DNA of 64,000 bases from Gramella sp. Hel_I_59 (GTDB lineage: Bacteria; Bacteroidota; Bacteroidia; Flavobacteriales; Flavobacteriaceae), in assembly GCF_006714895.1 (NCBI RefSeq), contig NZ_VFME01000001.1:2170001-2234000 (forward strand), given 5' to 3'. The notes under the pieces are model-generated. The model was given only the letters and a program-made list of their open reading frames with translations. It searched no databases and was not told the DNA's origin. Each line of letters begins with the position of its first letter. The stretch's first letter is position 1. Shown here piece by piece: positions 20,562-62,980 of this stretch. A program made the position numbers and the translations under genes.

Positions 20562-20597
20562 AAATGTATATTTGGGTGGATATAACGAGTTGGCAAC
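20551..20597 (+). other. Presumed attI site (array entry point)
   Basis: The first cassette begins at G20589 with GTTGGCAACAA. This is inferred because those bases are the inverted complement of GTTGCCAAC just before the first attC-like site at 21111. Upstream, ACTCGGATA (20552-20560) and GATATAACGAGT (20579-20590) form inverted arms around about 20 bases, and GATATAACGAG resembles the right arm of the sites. The site overlaps the last codons of the recombinase gene. Confidence 0.65.
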
Positions 20598-20691
20598 AAA
20601 CCAAAAGAAATTTGAACTTAAAGAAAAAATTAAAAATTGCTTCTTAACAAATCAGATCAGTCCAAAAAAGACAAATAACCCGATATACAAA

Positions 20692-21099
20692 ATGAATAAA
20701 AAATCACAACTAACTGAGCATTTAGAAAAATACTGCGAATCTTACTCTGAGATTGAGAATAATATTATAATAACAACTACAAAACCTCTCATATTTCAAG
20801 TAGATTTTTCAAATAATAAAACTGATATTTCTGCTAAACTGAAAGGCTGGAATTTTCTGACAGGTTTCTTAGAAATGAGATTTGAGAAAGTTGCAAGCTA
20901 TATATCGATAATGTTGATTCTAATGATTTTGATTACTATGTTTTCATTAGGAATGGTTGAAAATGAAATTGAAAACACCACTGTTCTAATTTCAATTACT
21001 TGTATAGTAGTGGCTGCAGTATGGACTTGCCTATTCTATATAAATTATCGAATTAAATATGAAAACATGAAAAATAGGATTGTAGATTGGACCAACTAA
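20692..21099 (+). CDS. Cassette 1: small membrane protein of unknown function
   Basis: A 135-residue protein starting at MNKKSQLTEH. The open frame extends upstream into the recombinase gene, but that part crosses the attI point and is not conserved coding, so I chose the Met inside the cassette. A soluble N-terminal half is followed by two hydrophobic segments (SYISIMLILMILITMFSLGM and TVLISITCIVVAAVWTCLFYI). Being first in the array, it is the cassette most likely to be read by transcription from the recombinase gene. The function is unknown. Confidence 0.65.
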   Translation: MNKKSQLTEHLEKYCESYSEIENNIIITTTKPLIFQVDFSNNKTDISAKLKGWNFLTGFLEMRFEKVASYISIMLILMILITMFSLGMVENEIENTTVLISITCIVVAAVWTCLFYINYRIKYENMKNRIVDWTN

Positions 21100-21110
21100 G
21101 GTCAGTTGCC

Positions 21111-21235
21111 AACATCGGTTCATCGCAAATAACGGGTATTTTCGAAAAAGTGTAATTTTAGAAACCAGGTGAGAAAACAATTAATCCGACAAGTCCGCGT
21201 TCCTACTCCCGCAACTTGCGATAACCGTAACCGTT
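21111..21235 (+). repeat. attC-like site 1 (type A)
   Basis: Closes cassette 1. The end GTTGCCAAC pairs with the cassette start GTTGGCAAC; position 11 is A facing C. Confidence 0.9.
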
Positions 21236-21244
21236 GTAGCAAAT

Positions 21245-21943
21245 ATGTTAAAGAAGATTTTCGTATTTATAACAGTACTAACATTGCAATTAAGTTGCAT
21301 TGATAAATTCGATCATCCAACGTTCGAAAAACAAGTATCGCACGAAATTTTTCCTCAATTGATGGATTCTTTGCATTTTGATCAACGGTTAAAGTTTCCA
21401 ATACCTCCTCCTCCACCTCCTAGTGAACCAAACGAACAAGATAAAAATTTCGAGAAATATAAAATTGATTCAGCAGATTTAGAGAAACGAATTAAGAGTT
21501 ACGAAAAACAAAAAATTGAATTGTATAATGACTCAGTAAAATTAATGACTGCAATTAGGGATTCAACATTATTACTCGATGAAGAAGATAAAAGAGATTT
21601 CTTAAACTTTTATAGTCTTAATATTAAAGATATAGACACTGTTAGCATAAATAAGAAATATAAAATTGACATCCGTAGACTAAACGCTGATCCAAAGATT
21701 AATTTTATCTATCGATCAAAATTACCTGGAGGAAGAGAAATATGGAACACTGATCATGGATTTTATTTGAACTCCATTGTATCAATAAGCAGAATACAAT
21801 TTGATAGAAATAGAAAATTTGGTGTGATGACTGCGGGTTATTCGATGGGATTTATGAATGGTGTTGCATTTAGAATTTTTATAAGAAAAAATAATGAAGG
21901 TAAATGGGTAATTGATAAAATTCAAACAACATATATTTCGTAA
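21245..21943 (+). CDS. Cassette 2: lipoprotein of unknown function, paralogue of cassette 25
   Basis: A 232-residue lipoprotein (MLKKIFVFITVLTLQLSC, lipidated Cys18). A run of six prolines follows at about residues 53-58, then a charged helical stretch, then a beta-rich C-terminal domain ending in IFIRKNNEGKWVIDKIQTTYI. The protein of cassette 25 (47935-48609) has the same layout and obvious similarity, and both cassettes share their first and last bases. The function is unknown; it probably sits in the outer or inner membrane facing the periplasm. The ATG is 10 bases from the cassette crossover. Confidence 0.8.
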   Translation: MLKKIFVFITVLTLQLSCIDKFDHPTFEKQVSHEIFPQLMDSLHFDQRLKFPIPPPPPPSEPNEQDKNFEKYKIDSADLEKRIKSYEKQKIELYNDSVKLMTAIRDSTLLLDEEDKRDFLNFYSLNIKDIDTVSINKKYKIDIRRLNADPKINFIYRSKLPGGREIWNTDHGFYLNSIVSISRIQFDRNRKFGVMTAGYSMGFMNGVAFRIFIRKNNEGKWVIDKIQTTYIS

Positions 21944-21958
21944 TAACATACTTGCAAC

Positions 21959-22083
21959 AACAACGGTTAATCGCCAATAAGCGGCACCGTTAGAAAGAAA
22001 ATAATTATCTTGACTAACAAACCAATACTAAGCCGACAAATCCGCGTCCCTTACTCCGCCAACTGGCGATAACCGGGACCGTT
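21959..22083 (+). repeat. attC-like site 2 (type B)
   Basis: Closes cassette 2. The end TTGCAACAAC pairs with the start GTTGTAGCAA (one mismatch); position 11 A faces C, and pairing resumes with TATGTTA. Confidence 0.9.
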
Positions 22084-22198
22084 GTGGCAAATTAAATAGT
22101 AAGTTTTTAATATTTAAAGAATAGACGTAACCGTTTATTATCTTCATATTTTTATATTCGTATTACTAACACTATTTCAATCGAAGAATTAAATTTTA

Positions 22199-25100
22199 AT
22201 GGATCACATATTAGACCTCATTGACCAGAAAAAAGAATTACATAAATTATTTGAAAAAATTGCTGAAGGAAATTCAATTGCCTTCTTAGGTGCCGGTGCA
22301 TCAGTAGGTGAAAGGCGATATTTGAGTAAGGAAGTCATAGAGTATTATGAAGATTACCTTGGTGAATCTTTAGGTATATCCGATATAACAAAATTTGTTG
22401 ATATGTTATCAGCAGATCCTAAATTTGATAGAGCTCATTTCGATGCGGAAGTAGCAAAAATGATTGAAAAATATGAGGTTACTAACGGCCATAAAATTTT
22501 CGCATCAATACCGTGGAGAGAAATTATTACAACTAATTATGACCTCCTTGTAGAAAGAGCATATGATGAAGTAAAGTCAACCTCAAATCAGGTTTTTGAT
22601 TTATACCCTGTAAGAAGACCAAACGATTTTCACTACGGAAAAAGTAATTCAGAAGTAAGATTAATAAAATTAAATGGATGTGTTTCAGATAAAAGAAAGT
22701 TTCCATTAGCTTTCTCCAGTGAGGACTTTAAAAAATTAAATAAGTTCTATAAAAAAGTTCTTAATAGTCTGAAAGATTTATCGGATAATGTTTCATTGTT
22801 TTCTTTTGGATATTCATTTCAAGATGAATTTGGTAAGGAACTCCTAGAAAAATTTGACTCCTATAATTATCGAGATAGGAAATGGATATTTAATATAGAT
22901 CCTTATCCGAATGAAAAAATTCTACCCTATTACTCCAAAAATAGAATTTGTATTGTAAAATGTACCTTCCAAGAGTTTTTTGAAAAATATAAAGAATGGC
23001 AGGAAGGTGAATATGGAAATGTTGTCAAAAGAAAGAAAATAGCATTCCATAACAGTAGAAATCAACACATAAACCTTCCCAACAAATTAGCTGTAAATCT
23101 TGATAACGTTCTGAAGCAATTGAATGAAGATAGCAGGGAAACTTATATAAAAGAAGAAGAATTTTATAAAGGAGAAGAACCAAATTATGGCATAATTAAA
23201 CGAAATGTAGATGTTGTAAAAAAAGACATTTACGATAAAGTAAACAGTTTTATAATCAAAGAATTGAAAGAAAATCATGATCCATTTTTACCGATTTTCT
23301 TTCTAAAAGGTGATTTCGGAATAGGGAAAACAACTTTTACTTTAAGGTTAATCAATGAATTTTCAAAAGACAGAAATTTTGATGTTGTTTCATTTGAAAT
23401 TTTGGACTTCATCAAACTTAAGAAAGAATACTTAGTTGAATTATTTCAGTATTGCAGTGCTAAAAATATAATACTTTTTTGTGATGAAATTGAAATTGAA
23501 TCATCCTTTAAATCCTTAATCGAATTAAGGAGAGAACTTAGCATTGAGCAATTTAATGACTTCAACCTTTTTTTTCTCGTCCCAATAAGAGAGAATATAT
23601 ACGAAAAGTACAAGCAACAGAGGCAACTTCAGAAAAGTTATGAAGTTAATATAAATGGAAGCTTCAATAATTTAGAGGTCTCAGAGTTATTAGATAAACT
23701 TAAGTCTTGTGGATTAGTAGATTTTAAAGATGAGGCAAGTAAGAGAAGATTACAAGACAAAATAAAGACTCAATACGGTAATGATTCATTCATTTCATTA
23801 TTGGAAATAGTTACAAACGGTAATCATGTAAGAAATTTACTGTCAGCTTATGAAGAGCTTTCTAAGGAAATGCAATCCGCATTTCTCTATACGGCATTGT
23901 TGCATCAATTTAAATTAAAAATGCCTGCTGGATGGTTAAAACAAATTGTTTCAATGGATTGGGAGCAATTTGTAGATAAAGTAGTAAAAGGAGAAGGAAA
24001 AGGTATATTAATTCAAGAACATATAAATTCTTATGGTACTGAACCAGATTTATTCTTTAAGACTAAACATCCTGTTATAGCAAAAAATCTAATTAACAAA
24101 ATTGTTCCTAATAAGGATAAGCAATTCCGGTTATTTGAAACAATGATTAACAAGATATCATATAGTGAAAATAACTCTTATCTCATTAATAATCTGCTTA
24201 AGACTATTGAAAGATTAGATAATTATTCCAAATCAAAAATAGAAAGACTTTTTGATCTTGCTTATAATAATTTCTCAGATGATCCTTACTTTTTACTGAG
24301 GTACTCCATGAATCTACAATATAGAGGAGGAATTAATAACTTAAAAAAGGCTATTGACCATCTTGTATATGCCGAATCATTTTTAGATCGTAGAAATCAC
24401 CGCTTTATTCATAGAAGAGCTGTTTTAAATTATAGTATCGCAAGAGCTACTTGGAAAGAAAATAAGCAGAAACTAACTGTAATTAATTTATTCCTTACAG
24501 AAGCGAAAGAGTTATTTCAAGTAAAACAATTAATGGATCCCTTTTCTGCCTATGGCTATGTAGATTACATAAAATTGCTAATGTGGGAATTAAAAAAACT
24601 AGATTTTGAGAAAGAAGAAAAGATAGCTCACAGTATCAAAATTGAGGAATTATTCGATTTAGCACAAAAAACTGTAACAGATGATATAAATCGAATTTTC
24701 AATCTAAAAGCCGAATACACTGAATTTTTACAAAATGAAACATCAGATAAGGAATATTTAAATTATTTAGATGAATTATACGAGGATGCAAATCTTAGGC
24801 CCTACGCCTGTATTCTCAAATACAATTATTTAGAAAGCCTAAACGATAATGAAAACTCCGAATTATTAGATGAGTTAATAGTTGAAATGGAACATTATTT
24901 AGAAAACAATGAAATAGTGAAATTTCTCTTTAAATACTATGGTAGAAGATTATTTAATCCCAATTATCGCGTTAAACTCTTCAATCTAACAAGAAAACAT
25001 TCATTTCTTGAGGATGAAATTCCACTTAGGTTTTACTACTTCAACTTTATAGCAGAGTCTTATAACAAACACTTTTCTGAGGGTAGAAAAATGCTAAAAA

Positions 25101-25366
25101 GTATCAAATTAAAATTTCATGGTTTAAACCCGGCATTTCACTATATATGGTCAGATAATAATGGAGAAGAAGTTTTATTCGATGGACAAATTAGAATGTG
25201 GTTTAAAACAAAGTATAAATGTGTGAAAATAACCCAGTTCCAACAATTCATTCCACTTGTGAAGGGTGATTATAGCGATTTAAAAATTAATGAGCCTGTA
25301 TTAGTAAAACTTCATTTTTACTTAAATGGTATTAAGGCTGAAATTGTATCAAACAAGGAAAAGTAA
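22199..25366 (+). CDS. Cassette 3: SIR2-like domain plus P-loop NTPase, probable anti-phage protein
   Basis: A 1055-residue protein, the largest in the array. Residues 20-260 are a SIR2-like NADase fold (GAGAS 31-35, TTNYD 111-115, FGYSFQDEFG 203-212). Residues 365-560 are a STAND/AAA-like NTPase with Walker A GDFGIGKTT (371-379) and Walker B IILFCDE (424-430). The rest is a long helical repeat region, probably a sensor. SIR2-STAND proteins (Avs5-like) sense phage proteins and deplete NAD+. Oddly, the segment that usually reads KLHG is KLNG here (Asn159 for the catalytic His). The function is inferred from architecture. Confidence 0.8.
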   Translation: MDHILDLIDQKKELHKLFEKIAEGNSIAFLGAGASVGERRYLSKEVIEYYEDYLGESLGISDITKFVDMLSADPKFDRAHFDAEVAKMIEKYEVTNGHKIFASIPWREIITTNYDLLVERAYDEVKSTSNQVFDLYPVRRPNDFHYGKSNSEVRLIKLNGCVSDKRKFPLAFSSEDFKKLNKFYKKVLNSLKDLSDNVSLFSFGYSFQDEFGKELLEKFDSYNYRDRKWIFNIDPYPNEKILPYYSKNRICIVKCTFQEFFEKYKEWQEGEYGNVVKRKKIAFHNSRNQHINLPNKLAVNLDNVLKQLNEDSRETYIKEEEFYKGEEPNYGIIKRNVDVVKKDIYDKVNSFIIKELKENHDPFLPIFFLKGDFGIGKTTFTLRLINEFSKDRNFDVVSFEILDFIKLKKEYLVELFQYCSAKNIILFCDEIEIESSFKSLIELRRELSIEQFNDFNLFFLVPIRENIYEKYKQQRQLQKSYEVNINGSFNNLEVSELLDKLKSCGLVDFKDEASKRRLQDKIKTQYGNDSFISLLEIVTNGNHVRNLLSAYEELSKEMQSAFLYTALLHQFKLKMPAGWLKQIVSMDWEQFVDKVVKGEGKGILIQEHINSYGTEPDLFFKTKHPVIAKNLINKIVPNKDKQFRLFETMINKISYSENNSYLINNLLKTIERLDNYSKSKIERLFDLAYNNFSDDPYFLLRYSMNLQYRGGINNLKKAIDHLVYAESFLDRRNHRFIHRRAVLNYSIARATWKENKQKLTVINLFLTEAKELFQVKQLMDPFSAYGYVDYIKLLMWELKKLDFEKEEKIAHSIKIEELFDLAQKTVTDDINRIFNLKAEYTEFLQNETSDKEYLNYLDELYEDANLRPYACILKYNYLESLNDNENSELLDELIVEMEHYLENNEIVKFLFKYYGRRLFNPNYRVKLFNLTRKHSFLEDEIPLRFYYFNFIAESYNKHFSEGRKMLKSIKLKFHGLNPAFHYIWSDNNGEEVLFDGQIRMWFKTKYKCVKITQFQQFIPLVKGDYSDLKINEPVLVKLHFYLNGIKAEIVSNKEK

Positions 25367-25380
25367 ATTTAACTTGCCAC

Positions 25381-25505
25381 AACATCGGTTCATCGCAAAT
25401 AACGGGTTTAGCGGAAAATGTATAATTTTAGAAACCAGGAAAGAAAATAGTTAATCCGACAAGTCCGCGTCCCTACTCCCGCAACTTGCGATAACCGTAA
25501 CCGTT
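25381..25505 (+). repeat. attC-like site 3 (type A)
   Basis: Closes cassette 3. The end TTGCCACAAC is the exact complement of the start GTTGTGGCAA; A11 faces C, then TTAAAT also pairs. Confidence 0.92.
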
Positions 25506-25541
25506 AGCTGCAAGCATCAGAAAAATTCAAATGAAAGAAAA

Positions 25542-25769
25542 ATGACTGAAATATTTATAATTATACTATTTACACTAACAATAATTCTTTGGATATGGGC
25601 ATTAATCGATATTTATAGGTCACATTTCAAAAATGGAATCTTCAAAATTATATGGTTTATTGCAGTGATAATTTTTCCGATTTTAGGTTCTATAATATAT
25701 TTCCAGTTTAAAAATAAAATGACTAGCAGACAAAGAAGAAAATTTCAACCAAATTTCAGAAACCAATAA
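25542..25769 (+). CDS. Cassette 4a: PLDc_N-like two-helix membrane protein
   Basis: A 75-residue protein with two membrane helices: IFIIILFTLTIILWIWALIDIYRS and FKIIWFIAVIIFPILGSIIYFQF. The W-W-ALIDI and PILGSIIYF pattern matches the small PLDc_N family (the membrane anchor seen in front of cardiolipin synthases, also common as stand-alone proteins). The role is unknown. It shares its cassette with a second small membrane protein 22 bp downstream. Confidence 0.75.
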   Translation: MTEIFIIILFTLTIILWIWALIDIYRSHFKNGIFKIIWFIAVIIFPILGSIIYFQFKNKMTSRQRRKFQPNFRNQ

Positions 25770-25791
25770 AATAAAAGCTAAGTATTCAAAA

Positions 25792-26043
25792 ATGAGTGAA
25801 TTCATAGGATTTGTTTTAATAGAAATTATATTCAATTTTATAGGTGCAGTAATAAGATGGTTATTTGGAAATATTTGGAGAACAATTAAAAATAAACGAA
25901 AATTTAAATTTTCAGAGTATTTAAACGCACCGAAAAATCCAGATCATTTTGACAATCAAGCCCACGAAACAAATAATGTTATTATTGGAGTAGTTTCAAC
26001 AATAGTCATCATATTAGTAGTGGTTTTAGTAGAAAGATTATAG
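25792..26043 (+). CDS. Cassette 4b: small membrane protein of unknown function
   Basis: An 83-residue protein with hydrophobic segments at about residues 3-25 and 62-81 and a basic, polar middle. I do not recognise it. It is the second gene of a two-gene cassette and ends 16 bases before the site. Confidence 0.6.
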   Translation: MSEFIGFVLIEIIFNFIGAVIRWLFGNIWRTIKNKRKFKFSEYLNAPKNPDHFDNQAHETNNVIIGVVSTIVIILVVVLVERL

Positions 26044-26059
26044 TTAAATGCCAGCAGCT

Positions 26060-26184
26060 AACAACGGTTAATCGCCAATAAGCGGCAGGCTTAGAAAGAA
26101 ATTAATTAACTTGACCAACAAACCAATACTAAGCCGACAAATACGCGTCCCTTACTCCGCCAACTGGCGATAACCGAAACCGTT
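26060..26184 (+). repeat. attC-like site 4 (type B)
   Basis: Closes cassette 4. The end GCAGCTAAC is the complement of the start GTTAGCTGC; A11 faces C, then GCAT pairs. Confidence 0.92.
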
Positions 26185-26193
26185 GCCCACAAT

Positions 26194-26538
26194 ATGCTCA
26201 AAAATCTACTATACATATTCGCTACTATCGGATTTTTAAGTATTTGTATTCAAATAGTTCAATTTTTCATAGAAGAAAATCGGACTCAGTCTTATTGGAA
26301 TAAATGTGAAAAGGTTGAAATTGGAATGAAACTAAATGAAGCAAGAGAAATTATTGGGGATCTAAAATATCAATATTGGACCCAAGATTCTAAGTCTGGA
26401 GAAATTATTATCTATGAAAGAAATGGCGAATTAGAATACTCTTTAGAATATGATTTGATATTTGCAGGTTCTGATAATATGCGATTAATTTTCGACCCTA
26501 AAACATTAAAAATAACAGACAAATTCTGTGGAGAGTGA
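26194..26538 (+). CDS. Cassette 5a: membrane-anchored protein of unknown function
   Basis: A 114-residue protein with one N-terminal hydrophobic anchor (residues 4-24) and a small soluble domain. The KVEIGMKLNEAREIIGD segment looks like the start of SmpA/BamE-type folds, but the similarity is only suggestive. Its stop codon overlaps the GTG start of the next gene. Confidence 0.6.
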   Translation: MLKNLLYIFATIGFLSICIQIVQFFIEENRTQSYWNKCEKVEIGMKLNEAREIIGDLKYQYWTQDSKSGEIIIYERNGELEYSLEYDLIFAGSDNMRLIFDPKTLKITDKFCGE

Positions 26539-26813
26539 AAAATTGGACTATTCTCAACATATATTTTTCCATCTATTTAATCTGCTGCTCAATCTTTACT
26601 ATTTTCAATTGGCAGACACTGTCTTATGAAGAAGGTTGGGGTGTAGTTTATATGATCGGACTAATGTTATTTGGAGTATTAGGATTAATAATCGATTATC
26701 TACTAAGAAAATTAGTGAATGATAAAAAACTTTTAACCTTAATTGATGTTGTAATAATAATTAGCTTTTCAATAGTTTTATTAATAGAACTTCAATTGAA
26801 TGCATGGAACTAA
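26535..26813 (+). CDS. Cassette 5b: small membrane protein with GTG start
   Basis: A 92-residue protein with three hydrophobic segments (near residues 7-24, 34-57 and 69-87). It starts at a GTG inside the GTGA overlap with the upstream gene, which indicates translational coupling. The function is unknown. Confidence 0.6.
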   Translation: MKNWTILNIYFSIYLICCSIFTIFNWQTLSYEEGWGVVYMIGLMLFGVLGLIIDYLLRKLVNDKKLLTLIDVVIIISFSIVLLIELQLNAWN

Positions 26814-26827
26814 CGCATACAGTGGGC

Positions 26828-26952
26828 AACAACGGTTAATCGCCAATAAGCGGTACCGTTAGTAAGAAAATAATTATCTTGACCAACAAACTAATACTAA
26901 GCCGACAAATCCGCGTCCGTTACTCCGCCAACTTGCGATAACCGGGACCGTT
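26828..26952 (+). repeat. attC-like site 5 (type B)
   Basis: Closes cassette 5. The end GTGGGCAAC is the complement of the start GTTGCCCAC; A11 faces C, then TATGC pairs. Confidence 0.92.
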
Positions 26953-26973
26953 GTACACAATAAAAACATCAAT

Positions 26974-28778: not shown

Positions 28779-28903
28779 AACATCGGTTCATCGCAAATAA
28801 CGGGTTTTGTCGAAAAAGTGTAATTTTAGAAACCAAGAAATAAAATTGTAAATCCGACAAGTCCGCGTCCCTACTCCCGCAACTTGCGATAACCGTAACC
28901 GTT
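28779..28903 (+). repeat. attC-like site 7 (type A)
   Basis: Closes cassette 7. The end ACGCACAAC is the complement of the start GTTGTGCGT; A11 faces C, then GCCG pairs. Confidence 0.92.
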
Positions 28904-29281
28904 ATACACAAGTGCTCCGCAACGATTTTAGCTACTAAAAACAATAAGAATCCAAACTGAAAAATTCGAATTTTAAAAGCTTCAATTGATAATTTTCAAC
29001 TAAGAAGCTTTTGTGAATCGTAAACCTATAAAATCCTGGTTCTATCGAAAATTCTAAAAGATCGTTCAGGAAAGATTTAATAAGTAAAGAAGCTTTTGGT
29101 AGCTGCTCAAAAACAAATTAGCTACTAAGAACTTCAATAAAAAGAAACCTAGTACCAAGAAACGGACGCTTACTCGGTCGCAATAATTATTACAAAACGA
29201 GCAAGATTTTTCATAAAAGTCAGAGTATTCCCGACAGTGGCATATCTGCCGTTCTCACTCGGCTCTGTCGCACCAGTGTAT
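28901..29281 (+). other. Cassette 8: non-coding cassette, near-copy of cassette 37
   Basis: This unit has intact cassette ends (GTTATACAC start, GTGTATAAC end) and a normal site, but no open frame of useful size on either strand. The same 384-base unit (ends included) recurs at 59098-59481 without a length change and with about 30 substitutions by eye count. Inside are two related blocks, TTTAGCTACTAAAAACAA and ATTAGCTACTAAGAAC, and a TAGCTGCTC copy between them. Conservation without coding suggests an RNA or a DNA signal; the function is unknown. Confidence 0.75.
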
Positions 29282-29406
29282 AACAACGAATATTCGCAAT
29301 TGTGGCCATTTGAAATAAAATAGTATTTTTAGAAACCAAGAAACAAAAACCTAAGCCGACAAATCCGAATACGTACAACCACAACTGACGATTATTCGAA
29401 ACCGTT
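29282..29406 (+). repeat. attC-like site 8 (type C)
   Basis: Closes non-coding cassette 8. Type C arms read CGAATATTCGCAATTGTGG and CCACAACTGACGATTATTCG. The end GTGTATAAC pairs with the start GTTATACAC; A11 faces C, then GTGC pairs. Confidence 0.92.
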
Positions 29407-31333: not shown

Positions 31334-33505
31334 ATGAAAAAACTTAATATTCAATTTGAGAATTGCTTTGGAATTGGAAAATTACATCATCAATTCGATT
31401 TTGAGAAGAGCAATACACATTTAGTTTATGCTCCCAATGGAACAATGAAAACTTCTTTTGCAAAAACTTTTGAACTCATTTCAAAAGATGATCCTAGGAA
31501 CAAACCATGTGATAGAATATATAAATCGAGAGTTTCTAAATATGAACTTCTAAATGAAGATTCAACCGTTAATCCAAGTGATATATTAGTTATAAATGCT
31601 GAGGACGATAGCTTTGATGCATCAAATAAGATTAGTAGTTTTCTTGCAAGCAAAGAACTTAAAGATGAATATGATAATATATATCAAGAATTAAATGACT
31701 TAAAAGTTGAGTTTATCAAAAAATTAAAAATTATTTCGCAAAGTACTGATTGCGAAACTGAATTTATAAATACATTTTCAGAAGATGAAAATTCTGAATT
31801 TTTTGAGGTTCTTATTGATCAAGTTGATAATCTAAAAACTGAATATGAAAAATATGATTTTCGGTATAACGATATTTTTGATAAAAAAGGTAATGTCAAG
31901 AAATTTCTTGATAAGAATGAAGCTATTTTAGATCAATACGTTAGTGATTACAAAAACATTATATCGAAGTCCAGATTTTTTAAAGAATCTACAACTAACA
32001 CTTTCGGCACATATCAAGCAAATACTATTATAAAGTCAATTGAAGACAATAGTTTTTTTGAAGCAGGTCATAAATTCGTCTTAGAAGACGGAACAGAAGT
32101 TGACAACGCTGAAAATTTAAAAACAATAGTTGAAGAAGAAATCCAGAATATTTTAAGCGATGAAAAGCTAAAAAAATCATTTGAGAAAGTTGACAAGGCG
32201 ATTGGTTCTAATGCAGAACTAAGGTCTTTTAAAAATGTTATCGAAAAAAATAATTTGATTCTGGTCAAATTGAAAGACTACGACAAATTTAAAAGAGAGG
32301 TTTGGATTAATTACTTTTCCGAAATTAAAGAAGAAGCTGAAAAATTAGCAAATTATTACAAAGGCAAAAAAACCAGATTAGAAGAAATTATTGGTGAATC
32401 AAAAAAAGAGTTTGAACTGTGGACCAAAATCATAAGAACATTCAATTCTAGATTCCACGTTCCTTTTAAAGTCAATATAGTAAACCAAGAAGATATAATA
32501 TTAAAGGAAGAAACAGCCAATCTGACTTTCGATTATGCCGACAGAGGTGCAGAAGCTGTCAAACAAAATCGAGAAAATTTACTAAATATTTTAAGTAAAG
32601 GTGAGCAAAGAGCTTATTTTATACTTCATTTTTTATTCGAGATTGAAGCAAGAAAATTAAAGCCTGATAAGAATCTATTAATTTTTGATGATGTTGCAGA
32701 CTCATTTGATTATAAAAATAAGTTCGCAATAATCGAGTACATAAAAGAAATTCACGAACAAGATCATTTCAAAACAATTGTACTCACTCATAATTTTGAT
32801 TTTTATAGAACTGTTGCTTCAAGATTACATCTAGACAGGGATGTGATTTATATGACCACCAAAGACGTTCAAAATGAAATAACTTTTCATAAAGGTCAAT
32901 ATATAAATGACGTCTTTAGTTATCTCATAAGAAATTACCAAAATCCAAAGTTCTTTATTAGTCTAATAGCCTTTGTTAGGAATCTAATTGAATACAGCGA
33001 ATCTAAGAGTAACGCCGACTATTTAACTCTTACAAGTTGCCTACATAGAAAGGAAGAATCGGACAATTTGAAAGTGGATCAAATCTTTAATATTTTTAAA
33101 AATAAATTAGTTAAACTAGAAGATAAGACTATAGATTTTGGAGATAGTAAGTTGATTGATTTTATTATTGAAACAGCAGATTCAATAGCAGAGGAAAATA
33201 CGGATGAAATAGCTCTGGAAAATAAAATTTGTCTTGCAATAGCAATTAGACTGCAAGCTGAGAAATATTTAATTGGCAAACTTCCTGATATCGACTTATC
33301 CACAATCACGAAAAATCAAACTCAAATTCTTTATAAAGAGTATTGTACAAATCACCCTAATAGTGAAGCTAAAATCACCTTAGATAAAGTGAATTTGATG
33401 ACTCCAGAAAACATTCACATAAATGCTTTTATGTTTGAACCATTAATAGATATGTCAATAAACCATTTAACTCTACTATATAGAGCAGTAAATAATTTGA
33501 ACTAA
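31334..33505 (+). CDS. Cassette 11: ABC-type (AAA_13/Rad50-like) ATPase, possible defence protein
   Basis: A 723-residue ATPase. Walker A region YAPNGTMKTSFAKTF (residues 32-46) is degenerate: Met replaces the Gly before the Lys. The signature LSKGEQRAYFILHFL is near residue 425, Walker B LLIFDDVADSFD near 455 and H-loop IVLTHNFDFYR near 485. The middle (about 100-400) is charged and coiled-coil-like, as in Rad50/RecF-type proteins. Stand-alone ATPases of this kind are frequent in phage-defence islands, often with an effector; here it is the only gene in its cassette. Defence is inference. Confidence 0.7.
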   Translation: MKKLNIQFENCFGIGKLHHQFDFEKSNTHLVYAPNGTMKTSFAKTFELISKDDPRNKPCDRIYKSRVSKYELLNEDSTVNPSDILVINAEDDSFDASNKISSFLASKELKDEYDNIYQELNDLKVEFIKKLKIISQSTDCETEFINTFSEDENSEFFEVLIDQVDNLKTEYEKYDFRYNDIFDKKGNVKKFLDKNEAILDQYVSDYKNIISKSRFFKESTTNTFGTYQANTIIKSIEDNSFFEAGHKFVLEDGTEVDNAENLKTIVEEEIQNILSDEKLKKSFEKVDKAIGSNAELRSFKNVIEKNNLILVKLKDYDKFKREVWINYFSEIKEEAEKLANYYKGKKTRLEEIIGESKKEFELWTKIIRTFNSRFHVPFKVNIVNQEDIILKEETANLTFDYADRGAEAVKQNRENLLNILSKGEQRAYFILHFLFEIEARKLKPDKNLLIFDDVADSFDYKNKFAIIEYIKEIHEQDHFKTIVLTHNFDFYRTVASRLHLDRDVIYMTTKDVQNEITFHKGQYINDVFSYLIRNYQNPKFFISLIAFVRNLIEYSESKSNADYLTLTSCLHRKEESDNLKVDQIFNIFKNKLVKLEDKTIDFGDSKLIDFIIETADSIAEENTDEIALENKICLAIAIRLQAEKYLIGKLPDIDLSTITKNQTQILYKEYCTNHPNSEAKITLDKVNLMTPENIHINAFMFEPLIDMSINHLTLLYRAVNNLN

Positions 33506-37934: not shown

Positions 37935-38062
37935 AACAACGTATATCGCAAATGGCGGGTTTATTTGAAAAGAACTAAATTAGATTCCATAATAAACAAA
38001 ACCGTAAAGCCGACAAATCCGCATTCATTATTCCGCGCCACTTGTCGATATACGAGACCGTT
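37935..38062 (+). repeat. attC-like site 15 (type D, unique)
   Basis: Closes cassette 15. It is 128 bp with arms CGTATATCGCAAATGGCGGG and TCCGCGCCACTTGTCGATA. The end GTGCCCAAC is the complement of the start GTTGGGCAC; A11 faces C, then GCTTA pairs. Confidence 0.88.
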
Positions 38063-38085
38063 AGGATGCAATGCAACAGAGTTAG

Positions 38086-39213: not shown

Positions 39214-39338
39214 AACATCGGTTAATCGCAAATAACGGGTATTGCCGAAAAAGTGTAATTTTAGAAACCAGGAAATATAAGAGTTAATCCGACAAGTCCG
39301 CGTCCCTACTCCCGCAACTTGCGATAACCGTAACCGTT
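39214..39338 (+). repeat. attC-like site 17 (type A)
   Basis: Closes cassette 17. The end GCACTGGCAACAAC pairs with the start GTTGTAGCCAATGC, with the A11-C mismatch and one other. Confidence 0.9.
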
Positions 39339-39378
39339 GGCTTTAATGCTTTAATCAGGTTTAGTACTTTAAATTTAT

Positions 39379-46824: not shown

Positions 46825-46949
46825 AACAACGAATATTCGCAATTGTGGCCATTTCAAATAAAATAGTATTTTTAGTAACCAAGAATTTAAATCCTAAGCC
46901 GACTAATCCGAATACCTTCAACCACAACTGACGATTATTCGAGACCGTT
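46825..46949 (+). repeat. attC-like site 23 (type C)
   Basis: Closes cassette 23. The end CTGTGGCTAAC pairs with the start GTTAGCCACAA, including the A11-C mismatch; TTACA continues the match. Confidence 0.92.
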
Positions 46950-56488: not shown

Positions 56489-56502
56489 ACAAAACGCTAG
56501 GC

Positions 56503-56627: not shown

Positions 56628-56651
56628 AGCTTTAATTTTTAAGATTGAAAT

Positions 56652-57338: not shown

Positions 57339-57342
57339 AGCT

Positions 57343-57467
57343 AACAACGGTTAATCGCCAATAAGCGGCAGCATTAATAGGAGAATAATTATCTTGACCA
57401 ACAAACCAATACTAAGCCGACAAATCCGCGTCCCCTAATCCGCCAACTGGCGATAACCGGGACCGTT
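57343..57467 (+). repeat. attC-like site 34 (type B)
   Basis: Closes cassette 34. The end AAAAACTAAAGCTAAC is the complement of the start GTTAGCTTTAATTTTT with the A11-C mismatch only. The gene's stop codon is 2 bases before the site's paired end. Confidence 0.92.
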
Positions 57468-57494
57468 ATATGGCATTTTTTATATGATGATTCG

Positions 57495-57935
57495 ATGAAA
57501 AAAGTAATTATAATTCTGACTTTAATATTTTCTAATTCTTCATTTGCTCAAGAAAATGGACAAGAAGAAATTGTTTTTTCAAGAATTGGAAATTTAACTG
57601 ACGAACAAATTAATTCGAGCGGTCCAGCAAAATTATTATTTGCTAAAAAGTCAGAAATAAGAAACTTAGCAAAACAGGATTTAGAAAATGGAAATCCATT
57701 TTTGCTTCTACAAGGAGGAATTGCACCAGTAATAATAGCTACTGATCCACAATTTGAGGATAAGTATAAAATATATTTTTACGAATATGGTTGTACAGGT
57801 CCTGATCAAAGTTTAATAGAAGATTACAACAAAATAATATTCAGTTATTTGACAGACCAGTATGGCAAAAAATGGATTAAAGAAGTTAGAGATGATGTTG
57901 TAGGATTAAATGAGTGGAAAAAATTAAAGAGATAA
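57495..57935 (+). CDS. Cassette 35a: secreted protein of unknown function
   Basis: A 146-residue protein with a signal peptide (MKKVIIILTLIFSNSSFA, cut before QENGQ). The mature part has LLLQGGIAPVIIATDPQFEDKYKIYFYEYGCTGPD. No family is assigned with confidence. A small membrane protein gene follows 6 bp downstream in the same cassette. Confidence 0.7.
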   Translation: MKKVIIILTLIFSNSSFAQENGQEEIVFSRIGNLTDEQINSSGPAKLLFAKKSEIRNLAKQDLENGNPFLLLQGGIAPVIIATDPQFEDKYKIYFYEYGCTGPDQSLIEDYNKIIFSYLTDQYGKKWIKEVRDDVVGLNEWKKLKR

Positions 57936-57941
57936 ATTGTA

Positions 57942-58178
57942 ATGAAGAGGTTTAAAATTATTGGATTATACTTACTAAGCTTAATCTGTATTTTCACATT
58001 TTTCATCCTTCATAATTCAAAATATTTATCTTCTTTAATTGAAAAAGCTAAAGATTTCAGAACGAACGGATTTTTTATCTTTTTAGTTTCAGGTTTAATA
58101 GAATATGGATTACTCCTGACAGGAATATTTATAATTATAGTTTTGACATATTTTCTCGTTAAAAAAAACGCCACATAA
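57942..58178 (+). CDS. Cassette 35b: small membrane protein
   Basis: A 78-residue protein with two membrane helices (LYLLSLICIFTFFILH and FLVSGLIEYGLLLTGIFIIIVLTYFLV). Its stop codon TAA overlaps the AAC that opens site 35. The function is unknown. Confidence 0.6.
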   Translation: MKRFKIIGLYLLSLICIFTFFILHNSKYLSSLIEKAKDFRTNGFFIFLVSGLIEYGLLLTGIFIIIVLTYFLVKKNAT

Positions 58179-58301
58179 CAACGGTTAATCGCCAATAGAC
58201 GGCAGCTTTAGTAAGAAAATAATTATCTTGACCAACAAACCAAAACTAAGCCGACAAATCCGCGTCTCTTACTCCGCCAACTGGCGATAACCGGGACCGT
58301 T
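58177..58301 (+). repeat. attC-like site 35 (type B)
   Basis: Closes cassette 35. The end AAAAAACGCCACATAAC pairs with the start GTTATATGGCATTTTTT with two mismatches including A11-C. Confidence 0.9.
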
Positions 58302-58316
58302 ATATAAAATTGCACA

Positions 58317-58348
58317 TTGAAGATTTTATCTTTTAATCTTTATATTTG
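58317..58348 (+). promoter_or_regulatory. Candidate promoter inside cassette 36
   Basis: TTG at 58317-58319 and TATATTTG at 58341-58348 are 21 bases apart, which fits the Bacteroidota pattern TTTG / TAnnTTTG. It lies before the gene at 58371, suggesting that this cassette carries its own promoter. Confidence 0.42.
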
Positions 58349-58370
58349 AAAAATTCTGATAATTTAAAAT

Positions 58371-58898
58371 ATGAAACTAAACACATTGTATATAAAGTAT
58401 TTCATTGTAGTTGCTTTAACTTATTCAGTTCTTATGATTGGATTAGACTTAGTAACTGGTCGAGAAATAATTTTCTACGATATAGTTATAAGAATATTAA
58501 TATTTGGAGTTGGTATGACATTACCTTTAGTTTCCTTTCATAAATATCAAGTCAATAATACTGCTAAAGAATTTGGATTGAAAAATCCAGATTATGAAGT
58601 AAGCCAAAAAAAAGTATTCTTTTCAGATAAAACTCCAGAACAGATTTATAATACTATAGAAAGAAGATCTCAATTCCGTAAAGTCAATTTTCATGAATCG
58701 AATCAAATTATTAAAATAAAAACTGGTTTTACAGGAAAATCCTGGGGAGATGTCATTACCATTAAGTCCCAAAAAGAAAAAGAGAATTACAAATATCAAG
58801 TCGAAAGCAAACCGATCTTTCCACTGACTGTAATTGATTTTGGACAAAATCTTGAAAACGTACTTAAGATAGAACGTTACTCGAAGATTGCTATATGA
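58371..58898 (+). CDS. Cassette 36: membrane protein of unknown function
   Basis: A 175-residue protein with two N-terminal helices (IKYFIVVALTYSVLMIGLDLV and FYDIVIRILIFGVGMTLPLVSF) and a soluble C-terminal domain of mixed beta structure (NYKYQVESKPIFPLTVIDFGQNLENVLKIERY). The family is unknown. The cassette ends match those of cassette 21, but the genes do not. Confidence 0.65.
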   Translation: MKLNTLYIKYFIVVALTYSVLMIGLDLVTGREIIFYDIVIRILIFGVGMTLPLVSFHKYQVNNTAKEFGLKNPDYEVSQKKVFFSDKTPEQIYNTIERRSQFRKVNFHESNQIIKIKTGFTGKSWGDVITIKSQKEKENYKYQVESKPIFPLTVIDFGQNLENVLKIERYSKIAI

Positions 58899-58975
58899 AG
58901 ATAATTTGAATATAGATCAGGGTCTAATTGTCAAAATTATTTCAAATCAGGATTTCGTAATGTGCAACTTTAAAT

Positions 58976-59100
58976 AACAACGGTTCATCGCCAATAAGCG
59001 GCACCGTTAGTAAGAAAATAATTAGCTTGACCAACAAACCATTACTAAGCCGACAAATCCGCGTTCCTTACTCCGCCAACTGGCGATAACCGAGACCGTT
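58976..59100 (+). repeat. attC-like site 36 (type B)
   Basis: Closes cassette 36. The end AATGTGCAACTTTAAATAAC pairs with the start GTTATATAAAATTGCACATT over 20 bases with two mismatches including A11-C. Confidence 0.93.
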
Positions 59101-59478
59101 ATACACAAGTGCTCCGCAACGATTTTAGCTACTAAAAACAATAAGAATCCAATCTGAAAAATTCGAATTTTAAAAGCTTCAATTGATAATTGTCAACTAA
59201 GAATCTTTCGTTTATCGTAAACTTAGAAAATCCTTGTTCAACCGAAAATTCTAAAAAATCGTTCAGGAAAGATTTAATAAGTAAAAAAGCTTTTGGTAGC
59301 TGCTCAAAAACAAATTAGCTACTAAGAACTTCCTCAAAAAGAAGCTTAGCACCAAGAAACGGACGCTTACTCGGACGCAATAATTGTAACCAAATGAGCA
59401 AGATTTTTTATAAAAGTCAGAGTATTCCCGACAGTGGTCTATCTGAGGTTCTCACTCTGCTCTGTCGCACCAGTGTAT
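59098..59478 (+). other. Cassette 37: non-coding cassette, near-copy of cassette 8
   Basis: It has the same length and ends as 28901-29284 and about 30 substitutions, no gaps by eye. Changes are spread out and do not follow a codon pattern. The first 55 bases differ at one position only, and so does the block from TTTGGTAGCTGC to ACTAAGAAC. No usable frame on either strand. It is closed by a type C site, like its twin. Confidence 0.75.
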
Positions 59479-59603
59479 AACAACGAATATTCGCAATTGT
59501 GGCCATTTGAAATAAAATAGTATTTTTAGAATCCAACAAACAAAAACCTAAGCCGACAAATCCGTAGACGTACAACCACAACTGACGATTATTCGAAACC
59601 GTT
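59479..59603 (+). repeat. attC-like site 37 (type C)
   Basis: Closes non-coding cassette 37. The end GTGTATAAC pairs with the start GTTATACAC; A11 faces C. Confidence 0.92.
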
Positions 59604-59635
59604 GTGCAAAATTTTAATGAAAAGCCGAACTAATA

Positions 59636-60931
59636 ATGAGATATTTATTAATTGTATTTTTACTTCTAACAATTACAAGAAGTTATTCTCAAAACAAAAA
59701 AACAGTTAATTGGATAAACAACAATTTGATAAAAATTGAAGATTCAAATCCGGATTCTTCTCCAGAAAATTTCATTGATAATATTCCTAACAAATTTGAA
59801 AACGCGAAAATATTCGGATTTGGAGAAGCAACTCATCACGGTAAGGAATTTTTTAATATAAAGGCAAAATTCTTTAAATACTTAGTCGTCAATAAAAATG
59901 TAAGGGCTTTTTTGATGGAAGAATCTTATCCAGCAGAGTCGGGAATTAATGAGTGGATAAGTGGAGGAAAAGGAGATATAAATTCTATCGCAGAAAATTT
60001 CAGCATTCTCCCATGGCGGACACAAGAAGTTGCGAATCTTCTAAAATGGATGAGAAGTTATAATTTGAATAAACCTAGAGAAGAACAAATTCGTTTTTAT
60101 GGTATTGATATTCAAAATGTTCAAGGCATTAATATTAAAATCCGTGAGTTTGCAAAAGCGCAAAATATTTTAATTGATGAAAATTTACTTTCGGTATTAG
60201 ATAAATGTGTAAATAAAAAAGTTAACTACAACGCTACATCCGATTGGGCGGATAAACATAACCCAGAACTTCAAAAAATTAAAAATATAATTCTAGATTC
60301 TCAGATAAAATCTTCAAGTAATTCACATCAAGAAACTAGGGATGTTCTTAGATCTTTAGACTATTTAATGGACTACACCTATTATGTTCAAAATAATGGT
60401 AGTAATGTTCGAGATTTGAAAATGTTTGAAAATGCTGAACATATTATTGATAGCCTTACTAAAAACGGGAAAGCTTTCATTTGGGCACATAATGAACATA
60501 TAAACAATCTTGAAAGAATTTCATACGGAAGCGGTTGGACTAGTCTAGGAGCACATTTAAATGAACGGTATCAAAATGATTACTACAGCGTAGGATTCGA
60601 TTTCGGAGTAGGCAATTTGTTAGGATATGTAGCAGAAAAAAACAAACCACATCATTGGGAAATTTTTACCGTCGATAAACCTTTCAAAAGAACATATTCA
60701 AAAACGCTATTTGAAGCGAATGCGAATATCTTTTTTCTAGATATAAATAAACTTTCGCAAGACGATGAAATTGATTTCTTTAATAAAAAAGAGAAACAAT
60801 TAATTTTAGGAGGGCCAGGATATAATCCTAAAGATTTTCATTTAATACCGAAAAAGATTTCAGAAATGTATGATGGATTAATTTTTGTAAAAAAGATTTC
60901 TGTGCCAGATTATAATCTAGAGAATCTATAA
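59636..60931 (+). CDS. Cassette 38: erythromycin esterase family protein
   Basis: A 431-residue protein with a signal peptide (LLLTITRSYSQ). It carries the erythromycin esterase-like signature: GFGEATHHGKEFFNIKAKFFKYL (Glu64, His67, His68), FLMEESYPAESGINEWI, RFYGIDIQNVQG and FIWAHNEHINN. Family members EreA/EreB hydrolyse the macrolide lactone, but most members have other, unknown substrates. Its cassette location recalls ere genes in clinical integrons. Substrate inferred only. Confidence 0.87.
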   Translation: MRYLLIVFLLLTITRSYSQNKKTVNWINNNLIKIEDSNPDSSPENFIDNIPNKFENAKIFGFGEATHHGKEFFNIKAKFFKYLVVNKNVRAFLMEESYPAESGINEWISGGKGDINSIAENFSILPWRTQEVANLLKWMRSYNLNKPREEQIRFYGIDIQNVQGINIKIREFAKAQNILIDENLLSVLDKCVNKKVNYNATSDWADKHNPELQKIKNIILDSQIKSSSNSHQETRDVLRSLDYLMDYTYYVQNNGSNVRDLKMFENAEHIIDSLTKNGKAFIWAHNEHINNLERISYGSGWTSLGAHLNERYQNDYYSVGFDFGVGNLLGYVAEKNKPHHWEIFTVDKPFKRTYSKTLFEANANIFFLDINKLSQDDEIDFFNKKEKQLILGGPGYNPKDFHLIPKKISEMYDGLIFVKKISVPDYNLENL

Positions 60932-60941
60932 AACTTTGCAC

Positions 60942-61066
60942 AACATCGGTTAATCGCAAATAACGGGTATTACCGAAAAAGTATAATTTTAGAAACCAAG
61001 AAAGAATAAAACTAAGCCGACAAGTCCGCGTCCCTACTCCCGCAACTTGCGATAACCGTAACAGTT
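60942..61066 (+). repeat. attC-like site 38 (type A)
   Basis: Closes cassette 38. The end TAAAACTTTGCACAAC pairs with the start GTTGTGCAAAATTTTA with the A11-C mismatch only. The right arm ends ACAGTT. Confidence 0.92.
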
Positions 61067-61083
61067 GGCTGTAATTATTTAGA

Positions 61084-61911
61084 GTGAGTGTAACTAAAGC
61101 ATTTTTTCTGACTTTGCTATTAATGATAGCATATTTACTGGTTCAACTGGGAGTAATTGCATTATTCGAATTATATGATCAACCAATAACTTTATCTAAT
61201 TTACATCTCAAAGGACTGAGTAAAACTGTAGCTCCAATTCTAAGCTACCTAGTTCTATTTAAAATTTTTTGGAAAGTGAAGATTTCGAATAAAGATGAGT
61301 TAAGAAGTGATTTTAGTTTTAAAATTCTGACTTTTATTATAATTATTTCGATAGGATTAGAATTAATAAATCAACCCTTATACGATATCAGTAAAATGGT
61401 TGAATTTTATAAAACGGGTATACCAGCTATTCAAAATTTTCATTACTCACAAAATTCAATTGACTTAGTTTACCAATTCGCAGCAATCTTAATAGTATCT
61501 CCAATTTTAGAAGAATTGTTCTTTAGAAAGTTTTTGTTATCAAAACTCTTAATCAAATACAACATCTCTATATCTGTTATAATATCAAGTTTGTGTTTTT
61601 CATTAATCCACATTGAAACTCCTAATAATTTGATTCCCTCTTTAATTTTTGGAATTCTGAGTAGCATAATATTTCTAAATACTGGTAAAATCATCTATTC
61701 AATAGTTTTCCATGCTTTAAGGAATAGCTTTTACTTTATAATTCTATTGAATGCAGAGATTTATGATAGTTGGATCTACGGTTTTAATTTTAATTATGTC
61801 TACTGGAGTTTAGTGCTAATTGGTTTAGTATTAGTATTTGTGGGTATGAAGAAAATAACTTCAGCCAACATCGGTTCATCGCAAATAACGGGTATTGAAG
61901 AAAAAGTGTAA
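61084..61911 (+). CDS. Cassette 39: CPBP-family intramembrane protease with GTG start
   Basis: A 275-residue membrane protein with about seven hydrophobic segments. CPBP (CAAX protease / bacteriocin-processing) motifs are present: PILEELFFRKFLL (Glu143, Glu144, Arg148), CFSLIHIETP (His176) and FHALRNSF. The family cleaves or processes membrane peptides and includes bacteriocin immunity proteins. GTG 61084 is the only sensible start. The last 15 codons or so are encoded by the left half of site 39. Confidence 0.85.
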   Translation: MSVTKAFFLTLLLMIAYLLVQLGVIALFELYDQPITLSNLHLKGLSKTVAPILSYLVLFKIFWKVKISNKDELRSDFSFKILTFIIIISIGLELINQPLYDISKMVEFYKTGIPAIQNFHYSQNSIDLVYQFAAILIVSPILEELFFRKFLLSKLLIKYNISISVIISSLCFSLIHIETPNNLIPSLIFGILSSIIFLNTGKIIYSIVFHALRNSFYFIILLNAEIYDSWIYGFNFNYVYWSLVLIGLVLVFVGMKKITSANIGSSQITGIEEKV

Positions 61912-61991
61912 TTTTAGAAACCAGGAAAGAAAAAGGTTAATCCGACAAGTCCGCGTCCCTATTCCCGCAACTTGCGATAACCGTAACCGTT
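61867..61991 (+). repeat. attC-like site 39 (type A)
   Basis: Closes cassette 39 and overlaps the end of its gene by 45 bases. The end AAATAACTTCAGCCAAC pairs with the start GTTGGCTGTAATTATTT with two mismatches including A11-C. Confidence 0.9.
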
Positions 61992-62008
61992 GGCAATCAT
62001 TTGTAGAG

Positions 62009-62836
62009 ATGAGAAATTACACAATATTTCTATTATTGATCATATTTTTTTCCTCTTGTAAGGATGCAAAAGAAGGAAAGGGTACCATTGAATTAAAAGA
62101 AAGTGCTTCTTCGAATTTAGAGGTTGATCATTTAAATATTTGGGTTAAAAACCCAAACATTGCTAAAGAGCGATTAATTAATATTGGATTTACTTCGGTT
62201 CCAGATTCACTCTCAGCAGTACATGAAGGTCAAGGAACAGCAGGAAAGTACTTCAATTTTTTGAATGGCTACCTAGAACTGATTTTTGTTTATGATAAAA
62301 ACGAGCTGGATGAAAACATTCAGAAAAATAAAAATCTAGATTTTATAAAAAGAGCCGACTTTGGGAAAAATGGTGCTTTACCGTTTAGCATTGCGCTTAA
62401 AATGAAAAATTACAATCCAGAAAAAATTCCATTTGAAAAAGTAAGATATCATCAAGATTGGATGGACGATAATGCAAATATATACGCAGCTAGGAATTCA
62501 AAAAAACTTCTTCAAGAACCTTCAATTTTCATAGTCTATCCAGAAATTGAGTCGGACAGCTTTGAAAATATGTCAGAGCTAAGTATTATTCCAGACGATT
62601 ATGCATTTGCAAGAGATTTTTATAAGCATCCGAATGGAGCGGAAAAGATTACAAATATTATAATCACATCAACTGATTTAGATTTAAAAACAAAGACAAT
62701 AAAAGCGGTTAATGCAATAACAAATTTAACTGTGAAAAATGGTCAAGAACATTTAATGGAACTTTATTTCGATAATCATATTCAGGGAAAAACATTTGAT
62801 TTAAGACCTGAAATACCTCTGATTATAAACTTATGA
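62009..62836 (+). CDS. Cassette 40: lipoprotein with glyoxalase/VOC-like domain
   Basis: A 275-residue lipoprotein (LLLIIFFSSCKDA). The mature part begins with VDHLNIWVKNPNIAKERLINIGF, then HEGQGTAGKYFNFLNGYLELIFVYD, the pattern of VOC-fold glyoxalase-like proteins (Glyoxalase_3 type). A lipid-anchored VOC protein is unusual but known in flavobacteria. The substrate is unknown. ATG 62009 is chosen; the longer frame from 61895 runs through the site and is rejected. Confidence 0.77.
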   Translation: MRNYTIFLLLIIFFSSCKDAKEGKGTIELKESASSNLEVDHLNIWVKNPNIAKERLINIGFTSVPDSLSAVHEGQGTAGKYFNFLNGYLELIFVYDKNELDENIQKNKNLDFIKRADFGKNGALPFSIALKMKNYNPEKIPFEKVRYHQDWMDDNANIYAARNSKKLLQEPSIFIVYPEIESDSFENMSELSIIPDDYAFARDFYKHPNGAEKITNIIITSTDLDLKTKTIKAVNAITNLTVKNGQEHLMELYFDNHIQGKTFDLRPEIPLIINL

Positions 62837-62855
62837 CGTACAACAAACGTTTGCC

Positions 62856-62980
62856 AACATCGGTTGATCGCAAATAACGGGTATTGCAAAAAAAGTGTAA
62901 TTTTAGAAACCAGGAAACAAAAGAGTTAATCCGACAAGTCCGCGTCCCTACTCCCGCAACTTGCGATAACCGTAACCGTT
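62856..62980 (+). repeat. attC-like site 40 (type A), last site in the window
   Basis: Closes cassette 40. The end ACAAACGTTTGCCAAC pairs with the start GTTGGCAATCATTTGT with two mismatches including A11-C. The DNA after it starts GTTAGCCAAAA, which has the A at position 11 found at all cassette starts. Confidence 0.92.

Follow-up and report, generated by a model that had tools for sequence, protein, structure and literature searches.

Integrons have been described as systems of the IntI recombinase. IntI integrons, including the Vibrio superintegron and class 1 integrons, combine a single-orientation cassette array with a GTT/AAC crossover motif, an attI site next to the recombinase gene, and attC sites in which the start of a cassette pairs with its own end; the sites contain an R stem, an asymmetric unpaired spacer, an L stem, and a variable top, and the bottom strand is favored. 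Strand choice at classical sites is reported to be set by an extrahelical G in L'' and not by the spacer (PMC2727003), and the IntI insertion has been described as accommodating extrahelical bases (PMC4792948). IntegronFinder 2.0 lists one complete integron in Bacteroidetes proper, in Salinibacter (PMC9024848). Here, we analyzed a 64,000-nucleotide (nt) stretch of the Gramella sp. Hel_I_59 genome (Flavobacteriaceae), referred to as the window, in which 40 cassettes in the same orientation follow a tyrosine recombinase gene. The array, crossover motif, attI, and site architecture named first were found or predicted at this locus. It differs from IntI integrons in its recombinase, in an A/C opposition fixed at position 11 of the cassette ends, and in a second paired block at positions 12-16. 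We consider it fairly probable, from the sequence evidence below, that the cassettes are recombined at attC-like sites as folded bottom strands by an Xer/XerA-like, non-IntI enzyme, which would read a T-G wobble at position 11 as a tag of the fold or of the arm. The principal elements are as follows.

19404..20561, + strand: tyrosine recombinase, Xer/XerA-like, 385 amino acids, with an N-terminal domain of ~85 amino acids (Pfam Phage_integrase, NF040815)
20567..20591, + strand: attI-like element, TATATT-N-GATATAAC-NN-GTT, ending in the GTT of the first cassette (sequence reading)
20589..62980, + strand: cassettes 1-40 (script-extracted start/end pairs)

The array starts at 20589, 27 nt past the recombinase stop codon, and the window covers part of it. 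It continues for ~144 kb beyond the window (genome positions 2234001-2394000 were read, stretches L051-L068) to ~2378080, where the final site is truncated and other sequence begins; the whole array thus measures ~187 kb, or 5.5% of the 3,436,904-nt genome. A site pattern scan with one mismatch allowed returned 144 forward sites and 1 reverse site, and the controls gave 3 and 4 hits. By script, 152 sites with both halves paired were recovered, 130 of which were 125 nt long.

A preliminary description of the window held that cassette starts and ends match for about 10 bases, break at position 11, where A in the start faces C in the end, and need a one-base gap in cassettes 16 and 18. When each of the 40 starts was aligned by script with the reverse complement of its own end, A and C occupied position 11 in 39/40 ungapped pairs and in 40/40 with one-base gaps in precisely those two cassettes. 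Representative arms are listed below.

21233..21249, + strand: start arm of cassette 2, A11 at 21243 (sequence)
21945..21961, + strand: end arm of cassette 2, C11 at 21951 (sequence)
58299..58318, + strand: start arm of cassette 36, the longest match (to position 20), A11 at 58309 (sequence)
58959..58978, + strand: end arm of cassette 36, C11 at 58968 (sequence)
38060..38076, + strand: start arm of cassette 16, one base more than its end arm (alignment)
39336..39352, + strand: start arm of cassette 18, shorter than its end arm by one base (alignment)

In all 40 cassettes the start matched its own end over positions 1-10 and 12-16, individual mismatches aside, and the match faded at position 17. 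After removal of cassettes 25, 36, and 37 as near-copies of 2, 21, and 8 (n = 37), 241 of 259 cells matched at positions 4-10, against 103.0 +/- 8.3 with shuffled ends, and 169 of 185 at positions 12-16, against 81.0 +/- 5.9; for either block, none of 5000 shuffles scored as high, so that the match past position 7 lay far above chance, as the preliminary description had anticipated. Positions 17-20 pooled were at chance level (40/148 versus 41.1), with position 17 alone slightly above it (16/37 versus 10.7 expected). The claimed pairing of up to 20 bases therefore needed trimming: the match does resume after position 11, with a mean run of 5.0 bases with the own end versus 1.3 with other cassettes, but only cassette 36 reaches position 20, and 16-17 is typical. 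Each end was also compared with the start of the following cassette. At positions 4-9, 23, 17, 14, 13, 12, and 9 of 39 such pairs matched, about the shuffled level, which identifies the cassette's own start, not that of the next cassette, as the pairing partner. Across the whole array, arms were well paired in 140/152 cassettes by a score blind to position 11, and all 140 carried A/C there. Position 10 was mismatched in 12/40 ungapped window pairs and in 10/40 after gapping. As a separate observation, an A opposite A at this position, beside the fixed wobble, occurred in 32/114 cassettes of the whole array, the highest count among positions 4-15.

The arms had been presented as an extension of the usual 7-base R box, and a comparison with Vibrio had been proposed. 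The arms here are indeed longer than the classical R box; however, Vibrio cassettes likewise match to about position 10-12. In the array of Vibrio sp. HDW18 (47 cassettes, 38 different starts), the match between own start and own end was 0.87-0.98 at positions 5-9, 0.66, 0.57, and 0.45 at positions 10-12, and at chance from position 13 on, without a 12-16 block, and A/C at position 11 occurred in 0/47 cassettes. Own-end pairing past 7 bases is thus shared with classical cassettes, whereas the A/C rule and the 12-16 block, absent from this Vibrio array tested in depth, are the distinctive sequence features of the Gramella array. Fourteen further IntI-bearing loci from other classes of the same phylum yielded 6 distinct pairs, 1 of them A/C, at a locus with a partial IntI; repeated 12-mers were found in 8 of these loci, and in the 6 lacking any 12-mer repeated four times the presence of an array is uncertain. 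Of 296 sampled genomes of the phylum, 84 had IntI genes scoring above the cut-off, and none of the 86 sampled genomes with an IntI match belonged to the family or order of Gramella.

Four types of site were distinguished in the window.

21111..21235, + strand: example of a 125-nt site, ATCGG left-half family (sequence)
21959..22083, + strand: example of a 125-nt site, AACGG left-half family (sequence)
29282..29406, + strand: example of the third family, with more copies at 46825 and 59479 (sequence)
37935..38062, + strand: lone 128-nt site, fourth sequence type (sequence)

Sites were folded with DNA parameters as own junctions, that is, with the cassette's own end and own start around the site. 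In the window, the predicted energy was -27.5 kcal/mol for the bottom strand and -23.6 kcal/mol for the top strand (mean difference 3.87 kcal/mol), and the bottom strand was better in 40/40. With the start of the next cassette, the bottom strand reached -18.2 kcal/mol; the own junction was better by 9.3 kcal/mol, again in 40/40. The bottom strand was also the more stable in 139/140 sites of this genome and 162/163 elsewhere. These predictions bear out the earlier statement that the bottom strand, which carries a G-T at position 11, folds more fully. They do not bear out its sequel, that position 11 is a built-in strand choice. A thermodynamic choice of this kind, in which A-C would block folding of the top strand and G-T permit folding of the bottom strand, has the direction of the bias in its favor. 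In the 38 ungapped cassettes, however, the bias was 3.95 kcal/mol with native A.C, 3.13 with A.T, 3.26 with G.C, and 2.30 with G.T. Position 11 thus adds only ~0.7-0.8 kcal/mol to a bias of 3.9, or ~4, kcal/mol, and the bias persists with A:T or G:C. We therefore rejected position 11 as the main energetic cause of strand choice, and regard the thermodynamic explanation as a whole as improbable. Moreover, relative to A.T, native A.C costs 2.2 kcal/mol of bottom-strand stability in the same cassettes; that an unfavorable wobble is kept without exception suggests a role in recognition rather than in energetics.

R and L stems were predicted in 140/140 folded sites of this genome, and in 133 of them the scissile side had the longer spacer. 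An extrahelical base was present on the classical side only in 120, on the other side only in 13, and on both in 7. In other genomes, the R and L stem fold was obtained in 163/169 sites (selected by a laxer arm score with A/C) and spacer asymmetry in 151. Among these 163 sites, the first 13 L-stem pairs were free of bulges in 100, and a bulge lay on the classical side only in 35. The extrahelical base was accordingly discarded as a universal polarity mark: it is usual in this genome and, unlike in IntI integrons, not general in other genera with A/C sites. By these models, the shared polarity features are spacer asymmetry and position 11.

The strongest evidence that selection acts on the folded bottom strand came from mismatches within the arms, with position 11 not used. 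In 114 cassettes with unique starts (positions 4-10 and 12-16; a G-T in the bottom strand corresponds to A.C or C.A in the top), mismatches giving G-T numbered 22 in the bottom strand and 0 in the top strand, where composition predicts 56:44 (p = 3e-6). Without position 16 the ratio was 11 to 0 (p = 0.0013), and at control positions 20-29, outside the arms, it was 108 to 126 (p = 0.79). T-T in the bottom strand (A.A in the top) outnumbered A-A by 70 to 3, with 64:36 expected from composition. In other genomes, bottom-strand G-T exceeded top-strand G-T by 53 to 14 (p = 6e-5) among 264 unique pairs, which were collected with a laxer score and A/C required and may include chance pairs. This polarity points to selection on the folded bottom strand, and together with the predicted folds it suggests attC-like sites whose bottom strand folds into a hairpin with an R stem, an unpaired central spacer, and an L stem. 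It also bears on whether the arms could simply be a duplex inverted repeat to which recombinase dimers bind without any folding. Binding to inverted arms is common among tyrosine recombinases, but duplex DNA has no strand-specific polarity of the 22:0 kind; furthermore, within the window a cassette's two arms are separated by 0.4-3.3 kb, and the arms that flank each array site match at chance past GTT. We consider such a repeat very improbable.

Between diverged paralogous cassettes, whose bodies differ by 0-16%, both arms together (positions 4-16) showed 1 change, where ~23.6 were expected at the body rate. This tally comprises 19 hand-summed comparisons that are not all independent (a reference is shared within each cluster), with the composites c75/c127 and c91/c118 excluded. 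Long cassette-specific complementarity could also arise at once if the end arm were copied from the start when a cassette forms and were under no selection now. Such copying would leave no invariant A/C, and the arms are far more conserved than the bodies; a birth scar is barely credible as an explanation.

The A/C rule was also found at related loci. Pairs of GTT and AAC ends were collected if at least 11 of the 12 scored positions (4-10 and 12-16) matched; position 11 was never scored. Downstream of 80 related recombinase genes from GTDB (332 kb), 77 of 80 pairs were A/C, in 30 loci, whereas the upstream DNA (721 kb) held 14 pairs, none A/C. At 16 loci with recombinases 34-39% identical, 40/42 pairs were A/C, as were 25/28 at 20 loci of a phylum survey (19 from other families, 15 of those from other classes), where the reversed-sequence control gave 5 pairs and 0 A/C. 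When the three sets were pooled and pairs with the same start and end counted once, 118/125 pairs were A/C, in 46 of the 116 loci examined. As a sequence rule, A/C is firm and general among the testable loci. The GTDB recombinase closest to the window protein (97%) is from a Christiangramia metagenome-assembled genome. One Pseudoalteromonas locus (L152) had no array in its annotation and was left out of the analysis.

Own-arm pairing, A/C in many genera, conservation of the arms, the polarity of their mismatches, and the absence of an IntI insertion (see below) lead us to favor folded bottom-strand recombination, which could proceed as follows. The cassette ends would form the outer pair of arms in an attC-like site. 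When a cassette is free as a circle, or present as a single-stranded copy of that circle, its own end and own start would stand on either side of the ~125-nt site and pair with each other over 16 bp; beyond this stem would come an asymmetric bulge and then a second stem. The Xer/XerA-like recombinase would then cleave the bottom strand of this fold next to GTT and join it to the attI, in duplex form, that lies 27 nt past the recombinase gene. In the scissile strand, position 11 would keep the T of the start arm, facing G instead of A, so that the T-G wobble would exist in the folded form only; duplex starts and attI would present T-A, and duplex ends G-C. The recombinase could thus read the wobble as an arm or fold tag. 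That recombination takes place, where the strand is cut, that the substrate is a circle, and that the wobble is recognized are all inferred; the A/C rule is probably part of how the recombinase recognizes folded DNA.

The attI-like element lies 3' of the recombinase gene and is co-oriented with it. A loose pattern, ATAANNNGTT, occurred no more than 200 nt from the stop codon in 68/80 related loci, with A11 in 64 of the 68; a few of these hits were off target (e.g., L111, L114, and L129), and two rows were truncated by a contig end. The first cassettes differ among the window and its close relatives L070 and L071. By sequence, then, an attI-like element adjoins the recombinase gene and appears to be where cassettes are inserted. 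In divergent clades (several loci of L159-L165, as well as L207), visual reading showed a palindrome either just ahead of the first cassette or following the recombinase gene; it does not resemble the GATATAAC element of the main clade. The A11 of attI junctions, which are duplex, is also what one would expect if A11 served only for the binding of duplex starts and attI, with C11 keeping ends from passing as starts and the folded T-G being merely tolerated. The wobble does cost folding energy, and bottom-strand G-T is tolerated at other arm positions as well. Other end bases would, however, spoil a start arm too; of these, C alone gives a bottom-strand wobble, and C was invariant in 140/140. 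This invariance argues for the folded state, short of proof, and we regard duplex arm identity by itself as rather unlikely.

The recombinase is not an ordinary IntI. Against TIGR02249 (integron integrase, cut-off 265), it scored 195.3 bits, three relatives 184.8-212.2, and Vibrio IntI 522.8. Against NF040815 (XerA_Arch, cut-off 220), the window protein (228.7) and the L104 protein (223.8) were over the cut-off, and those of L080 (214.6) and L132 (217.3) under it; the label "site-specific tyrosine recombinase/integron integrase" that NCBI gives some relatives is the NF040815 family name. The spacing from the Box I R to HxLRH was 90-92 residues in 80/80 GTDB proteins versus 133-134 in 9/17 IntI proteins with both motifs found; where measurable, it was 91 in 6/16 divergent and 88-96 in 7/20 phylum-survey proteins. 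This interval is ~42 residues shorter than in IntI, with a gap in the alignment to 2a3v, and by motif spacing and this alignment the IntI-specific additional domain near patch III was not found. In a quick tree of 72 rows, the 17 IntI rows fell on one side of a branch with a Shimodaira-Hasegawa-like approximate likelihood ratio test (SH-aLRT) support of 100, with very long branches on one IntI row and two Xer rows. On the score, the missing insertion, and this tree, we rejected an ordinary IntI integron. The window gene also differs from IntI integrons by its extra N-terminal domain and by its co-orientation with the array. In the reverse-oriented integrons of Treponema and Chlorobi the recombinase gene is likewise co-oriented with the cassettes, and those use IntI.

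Archaeal XerA and bacterial XerC/XerD were the other known systems compared. XerA and an archaeal Xer (4a8e) were the best PDB matches by sequence, with IntI4 third, and the best by E-value when the AlphaFold model (mean predicted local distance difference test score, pLDDT, 86.1) was searched with Foldseek. The role of Xer proteins is to resolve chromosome dimers at a single dif site. The Gramella system, unlike Xer, has at least 152 sites of the folded type, an N-terminal domain outside the PDB sequence matches, and a higher similarity to IntI4 by template modeling score (TM-score). This domain alone reached a pLDDT of 92.6; residues 1-75 (19404-19628) are predicted to form beta-beta-alpha-beta-beta-alpha-beta, a topology that may resemble that of HARP-type DNA-binding domains. 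The domain is conserved, with a WS-x-T-x(3)-FY-like motif and a W39 invariant among 28 sequences. No Pfam family matched it over the cut-off (DUF5710 weakly, with E-values of 0.002 and 0.039, in 2/6 pieces). As modeled, it is a plausible candidate reader of the extended arm.

Several findings weigh against folded bottom-strand recombination by a non-IntI enzyme. TM-scores favor IntI4 (0.50-0.57) over XerA (0.37-0.39) and over the Xer hits as a whole (0.37-0.41, with a large root mean square deviation), although XerA leads on E-value. A classical-side extrahelical base, present in 127/140 sites, could set strand choice without position 11. No A/C pair was found in the available DNA at 50/80 GTDB loci (A/C in 30/80), partly because contigs end there, and of 18 stretches in another set, 5 yielded no pair at all and a further 3 only pairs other than A/C. 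The wobble excess in other genomes is not absolute (53:14). Within the array, 12/152 cassettes fell below the pairing score, probably because of intervening sites missed by the script; still, A/C occupied position 11 in 150/152 overall. The statistics treat related cassettes as independent once near-copies are removed, and the support consists of sequence and predicted folds, from which recombination, a cut site, and a circle are proposed.

A non-IntI recombinase at a ~187-kb array, with a one-base rule common to relatives across the phylum, would mean, if the reading is true, that there is a second way of choosing the strand and recognizing folded sites; with one base pair, it could then be tested cleanly how a tyrosine recombinase distinguishes folded DNA from duplex DNA. 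Tentatively, it is possible that another kind of integron evolved independently in Bacteroidota. In it, an Xer-type recombinase lacking the IntI insertion would recombine folded single-stranded sites; a paired 16-bp arm and an obligatory T-G wobble, as the chemical mark of the fold, would replace recognition through the extrahelical base and IntI insertion, and the N-terminal domain of the recombinase may read the wobble region. A search of full-text literature, covering the leading titles of longer listings, with preprints and most subscription journals outside its reach, returned no title on this platform or the A/C rule. Rfam gave 0 matches at the gathering score in positions 20000-64000. 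The rule itself (A11 in the start, C11 in the end) can serve to search for arrays that would be missed by an IntI model or Rfam.

Among the cassette contents, cassette 11 (31334-33502) encodes a 723-amino-acid protein with a full-length match to the candidate phage-defence model PDC-S46 (E = 3.6e-253), and cassette 3 (22199-25366) encodes a 1055-amino-acid SIR2-like/STAND-like protein with a weak ThsA match. Cassette 38 (59636-60931) is predicted to encode an erythromycin-esterase-family protein (Pfam PF05139). Cassettes 8 (28901-29404) and 37 (59098-59601) are copies, ~91% identical with their arms unchanged, and two further close copies and one more distant copy were found later in the array.

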